The notes below the pieces were generated by a model. The model searched no databases and was not told where the DNA came from. It was given only the letters and a program-made list of their open reading frames with translations. Position numbers and translations under genes: made by a program. Of a stretch of DNA of 64,000 nt, positions 2,438-55,339 are shown piece after piece. Origin of the DNA: Jatrophihabitans endophyticus. Its GTDB lineage: Bacteria > Actinomycetota > Actinomycetes > Mycobacteriales > Jatrophihabitantaceae. Location of the stretch: NCBI RefSeq assembly GCF_900129455.1, contig NZ_FQVU01000003.1, positions 620,001 to 684,000 of the forward strand, written 5' to 3'. How positions within the stretch are numbered: position 1 is the stretch's first letter; every line of letters begins with the position of its first letter.

Positions 2438-2762
2438 CGGCGATGTCCTCCTCGAGTCTGCGGCGGGACCGGGCGTCGCGGGGGTGGCGGCGTGGGTCGC
2501 GCGAGGGGCAAATCGTAACGGCGTGGACGCCGGGAATGCGTTCGGCGGGCCGTGCGTTTGGCGAGGACGCTGACGCGGTACCGTTCCGCGGCCAGCCCCG
2601 TTGCTCGGCGGTGTGATCCGTTGCGGGGAGCGGGCACAAAATCTGGTTCCCGGACGTTCCAGCGCGAGACGGACCGGAACCGTTTACACACAGCTGAGGT
2701 GTGAGCTCCAGACCGAGGGCTCCGCTCGCACGATCGTGGTGACCCCACTGAGGAGTTGACGT
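2438..2762. other. 325-bp divergent intergenic region, no gene
   Basis: Lies between the starts of cei and the DUF4193 gene and must carry both promoters. The only structure I see is a weak hairpin (CACAC/GTGTG, 2687-2703) and a slightly AT-richer patch around 2675-2690. No convincing ORF or RNA gene is present. Confidence 0.6.
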
Positions 2763-49326: not shown

Positions 49327-50325
49327 GTGACGATGCTCGAACCCGCGGACACCGACGCCGGCGTCCAGGCCCGGTTGCTGCACGACCTCGAGCCCGTGGT
49401 GGCCGAGAACCTCGACCGGCACCTGCGCACCGCCAAGCCGTGGCACCCGCACGACTACGTGCCGTGGAGCCGGGGACGGGACTTCGCGTTCCTGGGCGGG
49501 GAGGACTGGCGCCCCGAGGACTCGCCGCTGGACCCGGTCGCGCAGGTGTCGATGACGGTCAACCTGCTCACCGAGGACAACCTGCCCTCCTACCACCGCG
49601 AGATCGCGACCCGCTTCGGGCGCGACGGCGCGTGGGGCGAATGGGTCGGCCGGTGGACGGCCGAGGAGGGGCGGCACGGCATCGCGCTCCGCGACTACCT
49701 CGTCGTGACCCGCGGCGTCGACCCGGTGGAGCTCGAGAACCTGCGGATGACCCACATGCAGGCCGGCTACGACTCCGGGGACAAGACGGCGCTGCAGGCC
49801 GTCGCCTACGTGTCGTTCCAGGAGCTCGCGACCCGGGTCTCGCACCGCAACACGGCCGCCGCGACGGGTTGTCCGTTGGCCGAGCAGCTGCTCGCCCGCG
49901 TCGCCGCCGACGAGAACCTGCACATGGTCTTCTACCGCAACCTGGTCGCCGCGGCGCTGGACCGCGCGCCCGACGCGACGATGGCCGCGATCCGCGACGA
50001 GGTCGTCGGGTTCGCGATGCCCGGGCAGGGGATGCCGAACTTCCTGCGCAACTCGGCGACGATCGCCAAGGCCGGGATCTACGACCTGCGACTGCACCAC
50101 GACGACGTCGTGGCGCCGGTGCTGCGGTTCTGGCAGGTGTTCTCGCGCACCGACTTCGGCCCGGCCGGCGAGCAGGCGCGCGAGGAGCTCGCCGCGTTCA
50201 TGGCCGGGCTCGACGCCCAGGCGAGCCGCTTCGTCGAGAAGCGCGAGCGGCAGCGCGAACGCGACGCGGACCGCGCTACTGGCGCCAGGAGTGCTTCCGG
50301 CGCTGCCGGTCGACCAGCAACATGA
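49327..50325 (+). CDS. acyl-ACP desaturase (stearoyl-ACP desaturase family)
   Basis: 332-aa soluble di-iron desaturase that would introduce a double bond into acyl-ACP, like mycobacterial DesA proteins. Iron-ligand motifs are WTAEEGRHGIALRDYL (EExxH) and ADENLHMVFYRNL (second ExxH). N-terminal LEPVVAENLDRHL and PWHPHDYVPWSRGRDF are family hallmarks. GTG 49327 is chosen because GAGG lies eight nt upstream; GTG 49318 is an alternative. The 3' end overlaps the convergent DUF2631 gene by 50 nt. Confidence 0.92.
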   Translation: MTMLEPADTDAGVQARLLHDLEPVVAENLDRHLRTAKPWHPHDYVPWSRGRDFAFLGGEDWRPEDSPLDPVAQVSMTVNLLTEDNLPSYHREIATRFGRDGAWGEWVGRWTAEEGRHGIALRDYLVVTRGVDPVELENLRMTHMQAGYDSGDKTALQAVAYVSFQELATRVSHRNTAAATGCPLAEQLLARVAADENLHMVFYRNLVAAALDRAPDATMAAIRDEVVGFAMPGQGMPNFLRNSATIAKAGIYDLRLHHDDVVAPVLRFWQVFSRTDFGPAGEQAREELAAFMAGLDAQASRFVEKRERQRERDADRATGARSASGAAGRPAT

Positions 50326-52398: not shown

Positions 52399-52470
52399 AA
52401 CCCGTGTCAGCACTGTCCCGGGGCACGACTCGGGCCTGTGGACAACCGCTGATGAGAACGCATCTGTCGA

Positions 52471-52476
52471 TACGCT
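52471..52476 (+). promoter_or_regulatory. -10 hexamer of HNH gene (leaderless)
   Basis: TACGCT six nt before GTG 52483. No Shine-Dalgarno is present, so the HNH-tRNA transcript probably starts at the start codon. Confidence 0.5.
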
Positions 52477-52482
52477 CTGCTG

Positions 52483-53223
52483 GTGTCTCGCTCGCCACGC
52501 TGGTCCGACGACGACCTCGCAGCCGCGGTGGCGGCGAGCACGTCGCTGGCCGAGGTGTGTTCGAGACTGGCCCTACGACCTGGCGGCGGCACGTACGCGA
52601 CCCTTCGGCGGCACATGGCGCGGCTGGCCGTGAACGACGACCATCTGCCGAAACGGGTGGACGGTCGGTTGCGCACACGCCGGCGATGGTCCGACGACGA
52701 GCTGCGTGCGACGGTCGCGCGGAGCACATCGCTCGCTGAGGTGCAGCGCGCGCTGGGGTACCGACCCAGCGGCGGAATGCACCGCGCGCTTTCTTCCCGC
52801 ATCCGTATGCTCGGCATCGATACGAGCCACTTCACCGGCCAGGGGTGGTCCCGTGGTCAGCCCCCTGCCTCCGCGTTCGTCGCCCGGCCGCTGGACGAGA
52901 TCCTGGTCGCTGGATCCGTCTACGACAGTGCCCGGTTGCGACGGCGGCTCATCGCGGCCGGCCTGAAGCACCCGCACTGTGAGCGATGTCGTCTGGTCGA
53001 GTGGCAGGGGGAGCTGTTGCCGCTGGCGCTCGACCACGTGAACGGTGACAGCACCGACAACCGGCTCGAGAACCTCCGTATCCTTTGCCCGAACTGTCAC
53101 GCGCTCACCGACACGTGGTGCGGGCGTAATCGCGGCCGGCGTACTCCAACAGGTAGAGAGGGCAGGTTTAGGTCCTGTGCAGTGCGGGTTCGAATCCCGC
53201 CGCCGGCACCACCGTCGACGTAG
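52483..53223 (+). CDS. HNH endonuclease with tandem DNA-binding repeats; frame runs through a tRNA gene
   Basis: 246-aa frame. Two related repeats of about 60 aa (from residue 4, RSPRWSDDDLAAAVAAS..., and about 65, RRRWSDDELRATVARS...) look like helix-turn-helix/homing-nuclease-associated units. The HNH nuclease core follows: CERC (about 167-170), LALDHVNGDSTDNRLENLRILCPNCHALT with the D-H and N residues and CxxC zinc pair. Family-like sequence ends near CGRNRGR. Residues 218-246 are encoded by the overlapping tRNA gene and end 12 nt beyond it. Leaderless GTG start. Target unknown. Confidence 0.85.
   Translation: MSRSPRWSDDDLAAAVAASTSLAEVCSRLALRPGGGTYATLRRHMARLAVNDDHLPKRVDGRLRTRRRWSDDELRATVARSTSLAEVQRALGYRPSGGMHRALSSRIRMLGIDTSHFTGQGWSRGQPPASAFVARPLDEILVAGSVYDSARLRRRLIAAGLKHPHCERCRLVEWQGELLPLALDHVNGDSTDNRLENLRILCPNCHALTDTWCGRNRGRRTPTGREGRFRSCAVRVRIPPPAPPST
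53135..53211 (+). tRNA. tRNA with UAG anticodon but short variable arm (noncanonical tRNA-Leu-like)
   Basis: Cloverleaf of 77 nt including encoded CCA: perfect 7-bp acceptor GCCGGCG/CGCCGGC, U8 (53142), D-arm with CTC/GAG and G18-G19, anticodon stem GCAGG/CCTGT, loop TTTAGGT giving anticodon TAG (53169-53171), variable loop of only 5 nt (GCAGT), T-arm GCGGG-TTCGAAT-CCCGC, discriminator A and CCA (53209-53211). UAG reads CUA (Leu), but bacterial tRNA-Leu normally has a long variable arm, so charging identity is uncertain. It lies inside the 3' end of the HNH reading frame, same strand. Confidence 0.85.
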
Positions 53224-54549: not shown

Positions 54550-54885
54550 TCAGCGCGCGCAGTCGATGCAGCGGTCGGTGCCCGGCCGCGCCGCGAGCCG
54601 CTCGGCACCGATCGGCCCACCACAGCCGGCGCAGCGGCCGTAGTCACCCCGTTCGGCCCGGGCGAGCGCGGCGTCCAGCTCGCCGACTCGGGCGACGGCC
54701 CGGTCGAGCAGGGACTGCGCCTGCGCCCGTTCGAAGCCGATCGTCGCGCCCTCGGGGTCGTGCTCGTCGTCGCCGGTCGTCGACGACGCCGAGGCGATCA
54801 CGTCGTCGAGCTCGCGACGCAGGTCGGCCACCCGCTCGGCCGCCGCGGCCCGGGCGGTGGCGAGCTCAGTCGAGCCCGAGGTCAC
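54550..54885 (-). CDS. TraR/DksA-type zinc-finger protein
   Basis: 111-aa protein with a coiled-coil helical N-terminal part (about 5-80, ERVADLRRELDDVI, RAVARVGELDAALARAERG) and a C-terminal zinc finger C85-x2-C88...C106-x2-C109 (GRCAGCGGPIGAERLAARPG, RCIDC). DksA-like proteins bind the RNA polymerase secondary channel, but many short actinobacterial relatives are uncharacterised. GTG 54885 overlaps the end of prxQ by 20 nt, so the genes are co-transcribed. Confidence 0.88.
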   Translation of the reverse strand: MTSGSTELATARAAAAERVADLRRELDDVIASASSTTGDDEHDPEGATIGFERAQAQSLLDRAVARVGELDAALARAERGDYGRCAGCGGPIGAERLAARPGTDRCIDCAR

Positions 54886-55339
54886 GGCGCAGCTTGGCCA
54901 CGTGCCCGGTGGCCTTGACGTTGTACCGGGCCTGCTCGACCACGCCGTCCTCGTCGATGACGAACGTCGAGCGGATGACGCCGGTGACGGTCTTGCCGTA
55001 CATCGTCTTCTCGCCGAACGCGCCGTAGGCGCCGAGCGTCGTGCGGTCCGGGTCGGAGAGCAGCGGGAAGGTGACGCCGTCGCGGTCGCGGAACTTCGCG
55101 AGCTTCTCCGGCTTGTCGGGCGAGATGCCGAGCACGGTGTAACCGGCCGCGCCCAACGAGTCCAGGCTGTCGCGGAAGTCGCACGCCTGCTTGGTGCAGC
55201 CCGGCGTCATGGCCGCCGGGTAGAAGTAGACGATCACCTTGCGACCGCGCTGGTCGTGCAGCGAGACCGTGGTGCCCTCGGCGTCGGGCAGGGTGAAGTC
55301 CGGTGCGGTGTCGCCCGGGGCCAGGCGCGGCGTCTGCAT
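54866..55339 (-). CDS. bcp: thioredoxin-dependent peroxiredoxin (PrxQ/BCP)
   Basis: 157-aa thiol peroxidase that reduces hydroperoxides. The motif TPGCTKQACDF holds the peroxidatic Cys48 and, five residues on, the resolving Cys53 typical of the BCP/PrxQ group. DFTLPDAEGTTVSL and VIVYFYPAA also fit. ATG 55339 starts the family N-terminus. The open frame upstream has no homology. First gene of a two-gene unit with the DksA-like gene. Confidence 0.95.
   Translation of the reverse strand: MQTPRLAPGDTAPDFTLPDAEGTTVSLHDQRGRKVIVYFYPAAMTPGCTKQACDFRDSLDSLGAAGYTVLGISPDKPEKLAKFRDRDGVTFPLLSDPDRTTLGAYGAFGEKTMYGKTVTGVIRSTFVIDEDGVVEQARYNVKATGHVAKLRRDLGLD

Follow-up and report, generated by a model that had tools for sequence, protein, structure and literature searches.

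A probable homing-type HNH endonuclease gene with a putative promoter for the adjoining tRNA-Leu(UAG) gene within its coding sequence

We propose, with a probability of roughly 0.7, that the gene described here encodes a free-standing homing-type HNH endonuclease from a family specialised on tRNA genes, in this case that of tRNA-Leu, and that it is retained through a promoter embedded in its coding sequence. The window, i.e., the whole stretch of 64,000 nucleotides that was analysed (contig 3, 620001-684000), comes from a 4.48 Mb actinobacterial genome, and the features of interest are collected in Table 1. An earlier note on this DNA had described a nuclease-tRNA unit that is no chance neighbour and may be selfish or homing; linkage to tRNA-Leu indeed holds across Actinomycetota and phages, and a selfish, homing character fits best.

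Table 1. Coordinates (window numbering) of the nuclease-tRNA unit, its putative control elements and its neighbours
Feature	Position	Strand	Remark
Degenerate LexA (SOS) box AGAACGCATCTGTCG	52455..52469	+	Exact CGAACN4GTTCG at the same place in 17/33 homologues by script
-10 (TACGCT) of leaderless HNH promoter	52471..52476	+	6 nt ahead of GTG
HNH endonuclease gene	52483..53223	+	GTG start, 246 aa as read
N-terminal three-helix (HTH-like) repeat 1, residues 7-49	52501..52629	+	AlphaFold helices 9-17, 22-28, 37-48
Three-helix repeat 2, residues 69-110	52687..52812	+	AlphaFold helices 71-80, 84-90, 97-110
HNH core: C166/C169, D184-H185, N193, N197, C202/C205, H206	52978..53100	+	Invariant in 28 homologues
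-10 (TATCCT) of putative tRNA promoter, in codons R199-I200-L201	53079..53084	+	CGT invariant in 31/31
tRNA-Leu(UAG), short variable loop, CCA encoded, acceptor GCCGGCG (Pseudonocardia-type)	53135..53211	+	ARAGORN; Rfam 53.5 bits
DksA/TraR-like zinc-finger gene	54553..54860 (approximate)	-	In relative G006, 21 nt separate the end of this stretch from the native tRNA
bcp-like peroxiredoxin gene, which adjoins tRNA-Leu(UAG) by synteny in relatives	54866..55339 (start approximate)	-	

The protein itself is readily placed among the nucleases of the beta-beta-alpha metal type, since both the HNH and the zinc-cysteine residues are invariant in the 28 homologues compared, and it matches the phage family PHROG 10822 ('HNH endonuclease') at 2.6e-56. 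The two WSDD repeats pointed out in the earlier note are real and were modelled as two three-helix units ahead of the HNH fold, while the conserved part of the protein stops near residue 214 (nt 53124), the remainder being mostly tRNA read as protein. General models were less informative: the Pfam HNH_3 score was 21.3 bits, under the cut-off of 24.8, none of the NCBIfam models matched, and fold comparison returned weak HNH matches only (e.g., EcoKMcrA, ScoMcrA and Cap5), none with E < 0.001. PADLOC gave homing-endonuclease and ZorE-like HNH matches for the family, and identity with ZorE of Type II Zorya was rejected, as the match is confined to the HNH part and the homologue in G016 reached 23.8 bits against a cut-off of 600.

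Homologues were collected by protein similarity only, tRNA linkage being no part of the criterion, and yet a first scan already placed a tRNA-Leu directly 3' of the gene in Pseudonocardia, Streptomyces, Nitriliruptorales, Hymenobacter and Patescibacteria. Across 250 genomes of the window's order, a tRNA-Leu lay within approximately 620 nt in all 30 loci read (460 nt or less in 28), and downstream on the same strand in 29 of them. The family occurs in 65 of 101 Streptomyces genomes, where 30/30 loci read have the nuclease gene, in one copy or two in tandem, before tRNA-Leu(UAG), and tRNA-linked homologues of actinobacteria are nearly always directly 5' of a tRNA-Leu on the same strand. At the level of the phylum, tRNA-Leu (CAA, UAA or UAG) was found at 19 of the 22 loci with room for it and tRNA-Gln at three. 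In phages, tRNA-Leu was the nearest tRNA, on either side, for 36 of the 43 HNH genes with a tRNA at 200 nt or less, against a background of 12.5%, a comparison whose p-value is inflated because the phage loci are related. No match to the family was found in plasmids, and for the Bacteroidales homologues Rfam found neither a tRNA nor another RNA alongside. Variants of the arrangement were also observed: in family f15 (L227, L229, L230, L236, L239, L241-L243) a gap of about 420-460 nt separates the gene from a long-loop tRNA-Leu(UAG) downstream; in the f7 family of the order a divergent relative sits just 3' of tRNA-Thr(UGU) at 11/11 loci (L459-L469); and four members or weak relatives (L485, L487, L488 and L471) adjoin tRNA-Gln (three) or tRNA-Pro (one), possibly through retargeting.

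The sequence ahead of the tRNA may explain the persistence of this association. The earlier note saw no obvious promoter between nuclease and tRNA, which proved wrong: the coding sequence of the nuclease contains, 50 nt from the tRNA, a -10 hexamer conserved at the nucleotide level, and the part of the gene carrying this hexamer is retained in decay remnants. The Arg199 codon of the N-L-R-I-L-C-P-N-C-H segment is CGT in 31/31 sequences of the codon alignment (KL 2.31 vs 0.62 in the next column), and this invariant CGT yields TATCCT or TATTCT about 50 nt ahead of the tRNA in homologues. Where the gene has decayed, its tRNA-proximal end survives the loss of other parts (remnants L197, L198, L173 and L205; in L198 the -10 reads TACGCT), and in Pseudonocardia loci devoid of the nuclease TAnnnT-like motifs occur on the 5' side of the tRNA. 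It is therefore probable, judging from these patterns of conservation, that the nuclease gene holds the promoter of the adjoining tRNA. A read-through transcript from the nuclease promoter may exist in addition.

The distribution within Pseudonocardia fits a homing gene. The nuclease stands at the 5' end of the tRNA, intact, decayed or as a remnant, in 40 of 48 loci and is absent from eight, and the coexistence of these states within one genus is the pattern of gain, decay and loss expected of such genes; this is a stand-alone gene beside a conserved gene, sporadically present and prone to decay and loss, as free-standing homing endonucleases are. On the other hand, the actinobacterial unit may be old and mostly vertically inherited at the bcp-tRNA-Leu locus, so that its mobility at present is conjectural.

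Comparison with relatives bears on the origin of the copy in the window. In relatives the tRNA follows a bcp-like gene, from which a DksA-like gene separates it in G006, and all 12 distinct tRNAs of the window's own family at this native locus have the acceptor GGGGCCG. The tRNA of the window instead shares the acceptor GCCGGCG with 46 of 55 Pseudonocardia-type tRNAs, and its identity is up to 86% to Pseudonocardia tRNAs vs at most 73% to those of its own family; at the native tRNA place, G016 and G022 have a different HNH lineage, 44-47% identical. The phylogenetic tree groups the nuclease of the window with Pseudonocardia (SH-aLRT 91%), although an AU test did not reject its joining with the HNHs of its own family (p 0.125). 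Nuclease and tRNA are inverted relative to their flanks, which are a Rieske gene on one side and the DksA-like and bcp-like genes on the other. Homology to G006 begins again at 54557, at a distance of 21 nt from the 5' end of the native tRNA, and no remnant of the native tRNA was found at the locus. A plus-strand ORF at 54857, considered as the syntenic neighbour, was discarded for being antisense to the bcp-like gene. Sequence comparison thus shows that the native tRNA-Leu(UAG) has been replaced by one of the Pseudonocardia type, which probably came in as a pair with the nuclease. Simple gene conversion is no explanation for the inverted copy, and co-acquisition followed by local inversion would be the simplest account, with the order of events being conjectural.

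A homing cycle can be envisaged from these elements. In an allele free of the element, the N-terminal helical repeats would probably bind DNA within the tRNA gene or next to it, and the HNH domain would cut; repair of the gap would then bring in a copy of the nuclease gene together with its tRNA. LexA would probably induce the nuclease upon DNA damage in a large part of the Pseudonocardia clade, at a time when recombination is available. Because the insert would displace the tRNA's own promoter, the element carries a replacement, presumably active, within its coding sequence, and a cell could then not delete the element cleanly without losing the decoding of CUA. In the window, the nuclease and its Pseudonocardia-type tRNA would have replaced the native tRNA together, by whichever route.

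A special and non-exclusive form of this homing explanation, which we regard as possible but tentative, is a natural cleave-and-rescue system, in which cutting by the nuclease eliminates the host's own tRNA-Leu(UAG) gene while the linked, diverged tRNA serves as an uncuttable replacement, so that the pair spreads and cells come to depend on the invader; repeated replacement might likewise have diversified tRNA-Leu(UAG) in Streptomyces and Pseudonocardia. It agrees with the probable replacement of the native tRNA by the pair in the window, and also with the lack of a second UAG tRNA in the genome, since of its 45 tRNAs the linked one alone has this anticodon and reads the rare leucine codon CUA. 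This tRNA is, moreover, unusually diverse where the nuclease is common: its identity among 17 Pseudonocardia genomes is 81.5% vs 91.6% for the UAA tRNA, and in Streptomyces carrying the nuclease 30/30 tRNA-Leu(UAG) sequences are distinct, with short and long variable loops mixed, while a control GAG tRNA in other genomes (the set caught by the first UAG pattern in Streptomyces lacking the nuclease) showed 98.1% identity. Twenty Streptomyces genomes lacking the nuclease yielded 15 UAG tRNAs, about nine of them near one canonical form and some of these directly after a bcp-like gene; nuclease remnants lie beside three of the 15, persisting by tRNAs of the cassette type. Nuclease type and tRNA type are correlated (r 0.21, p 0.0005, uncorrected for species history). 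Such diversity would be the trace expected from replacement by linked tRNAs, but it could also stem from relaxed constraint on a tRNA for a rare codon, and identical tRNAs exist with and without the nuclease (L183/L187 and L194/L191), which speaks against the idea.

Some further observations concern these tRNAs. Short variable loops are found in the UAG and UAA tRNAs of the genome and not in its other three tRNA-Leu genes; the short loop was rejected as a mark of the element, since relatives without the nuclease share it. Streptomyces loci L342-L359 have two tandem HNH genes before a mostly short-loop tRNA-Leu(UAG), the loci with a single gene being long-loop. One Pseudonocardia tRNA of the UAA type (G135:C1:555873) has acquired the anticodon UAG by one change (TTAGAAGGG) and is a possible second UAG tRNA. 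Elsewhere in the window, a tRNA-Leu(cag) called by ARAGORN at 2661-2731 (minus strand) lacks Rfam support and is probably false, and a match to ASdes, an sRNA family of M. tuberculosis, at 49666-49733 (77.7 bits, antisense in a fatty-acid desaturase gene) may merely reflect desaturase homology.

The regulation of the nuclease bears on a less likely view, that of a domesticated enzyme with a host role, in the response to DNA damage or in defence against phages carrying tRNA-Leu, merely parked by the tRNA. Its promoter is leaderless-like, the -10 hexamer ahead of the GTG reported in the earlier note being confirmed, and in the Pseudonocardia clade it often has a LexA box: the exact motif lies 13-14 nt ahead of the start codon in 17 of 33 genes of that clade, and none of the 2055 control windows has it. 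Two further genes, for which the script called a different start, have the box or a near copy, and the motif matches the Streptomyces consensus tCGAAC-N4-GNNCGa (PMC9380542); the copy in the window is degenerate. These boxes, the purifying selection on the nuclease (median dN/dS 0.32, 0.16 for the closest pair), its wide presence in Streptomyces and the PADLOC matches would all suit a host function; the boxes and the selection also count in favour of homing. However, the box is missing from one subclade, no exact copy was found in Streptomyces, in other families of the order or in phage homologues, decay and loss are frequent in Pseudonocardia, and domestication does not explain why tRNA-Leu is the partner in several phyla.

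We consider improbable, and more so than domestication, the model of the earlier note, in which nuclease and tRNA share one leaderless transcript, RNase P releases the tRNA and leaves an HNH mRNA with no stop codon, and tRNA maturation competes with nuclease synthesis. The reading frame does continue without a stop across the whole tRNA, called by both ARAGORN and Rfam, and ends 12 nt past it, as had been stated. This is unremarkable, because the 45 tRNA genes of the genome, taken as a chance control, have 58 open frames out of 135 on the same strand (43%), and ORFs of at least 100 codons run through six of its tRNAs, the tRNA-Leu(UAG) of the window among them. Nor is reading of the full tRNA conserved, most homologues stopping inside the tRNA or ahead of it. 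Relative to the tRNA, with negative values lying inside it, the 32 full-length homologues stop at -10 in 11 cases (tRNA bases 8-10, UAG), at -1 in seven, at -36 to -38 in nine (the anticodon itself), at -89 to -92 in three, at 0 in one and at +12 in one, so that only 3/32 reach more than 80 nt into it. The gene simply takes whichever in-frame stop comes first, be it at tRNA bases 8-10, the anticodon or later, and given these stop positions and the frequency of open frames we rejected the idea that the frame crosses the tRNA by design. Since the stop lies inside the tRNA in 30/32 of the Pseudonocardia clade, RNase P acting on a read-through transcript would take it away there, a point in favour of the proposal; it fails for Streptomyces, whose genes stop 10-69 nt ahead of the tRNA where measured, so competition between the two products cannot be the general purpose of the unit. 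The conserved -10 also speaks against a shared transcript as the sole source of tRNA, though two f9 loci (L225 and L244) have no -10-like TAnnnT within 75 nt ahead of the tRNA and would suit the model. As for a chance neighbour with a chance open frame, the commonness of open tRNA frames makes the second half plausible, but the linkage in the order, in Streptomyces and across the phylum refutes the first and leaves this reading practically no credit.

The closest precedents are the free-standing HNH and GIY-YIG homing endonucleases of phage T4 (mob and seg genes; intronless homing), likewise stand-alone nucleases between genes on the same strand, and likewise with the promoters of downstream genes embedded in their coding regions, which favours their retention (PMC2988022). 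Unlike them, the unit of the window is chromosomal and actinobacterial, adjoins the sole reader of a codon and had its tRNA exchanged with the nuclease, and one clade of its family has a LexA box. SegB of T4 and T6 also acts on tRNA genes, inside which it cuts (PMC13096335), and promotes the inheritance of the tRNA region (PMC2988022, PMC13096335), but it has a GIY-YIG fold, is restricted to phages and acts on a tRNA cluster instead of one isoacceptor. The phage HNHs of PHROG 10822 belong to the same sequence family and adjoin tRNA-Leu as well, differing in that the tRNA may lie on either side. Horizontally acquired tRNA clusters of mycobacteria have HNH genes among their tRNAs, and a short-loop tRNA-Leu(TAG) has been noted in them (PMC6582537), although these clusters are large, phage-derived and located beside normal tRNAs, not built on a single, sole tRNA. 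The cleave-and-rescue reading resembles the engineered Cleave and Rescue gene drives, as outlined in PMC7951863, in joining a nuclease to a recoded rescue of an essential gene; those are synthetic and CRISPR-based, whereas the pair in the window is natural and its cutting hypothetical. In the literature covered, which is incomplete, we found no description of HNH/tRNA-Leu pairing in actinobacterial chromosomes.

The family brings together a large number of poorly annotated phage and actinobacterial HNH genes with one probable kind of target, the tRNA genes. If our reading is true, it becomes understandable how a selfish nuclease gains a permanent place in cellular chromosomes: it would possess the promoter of an irreplaceable tRNA, and perhaps the tRNA gene as well. 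This would provide a testable reason for the strong variation of one tRNA gene between Streptomyces species, and a natural counterpart to the engineered toxin-antidote gene drives.
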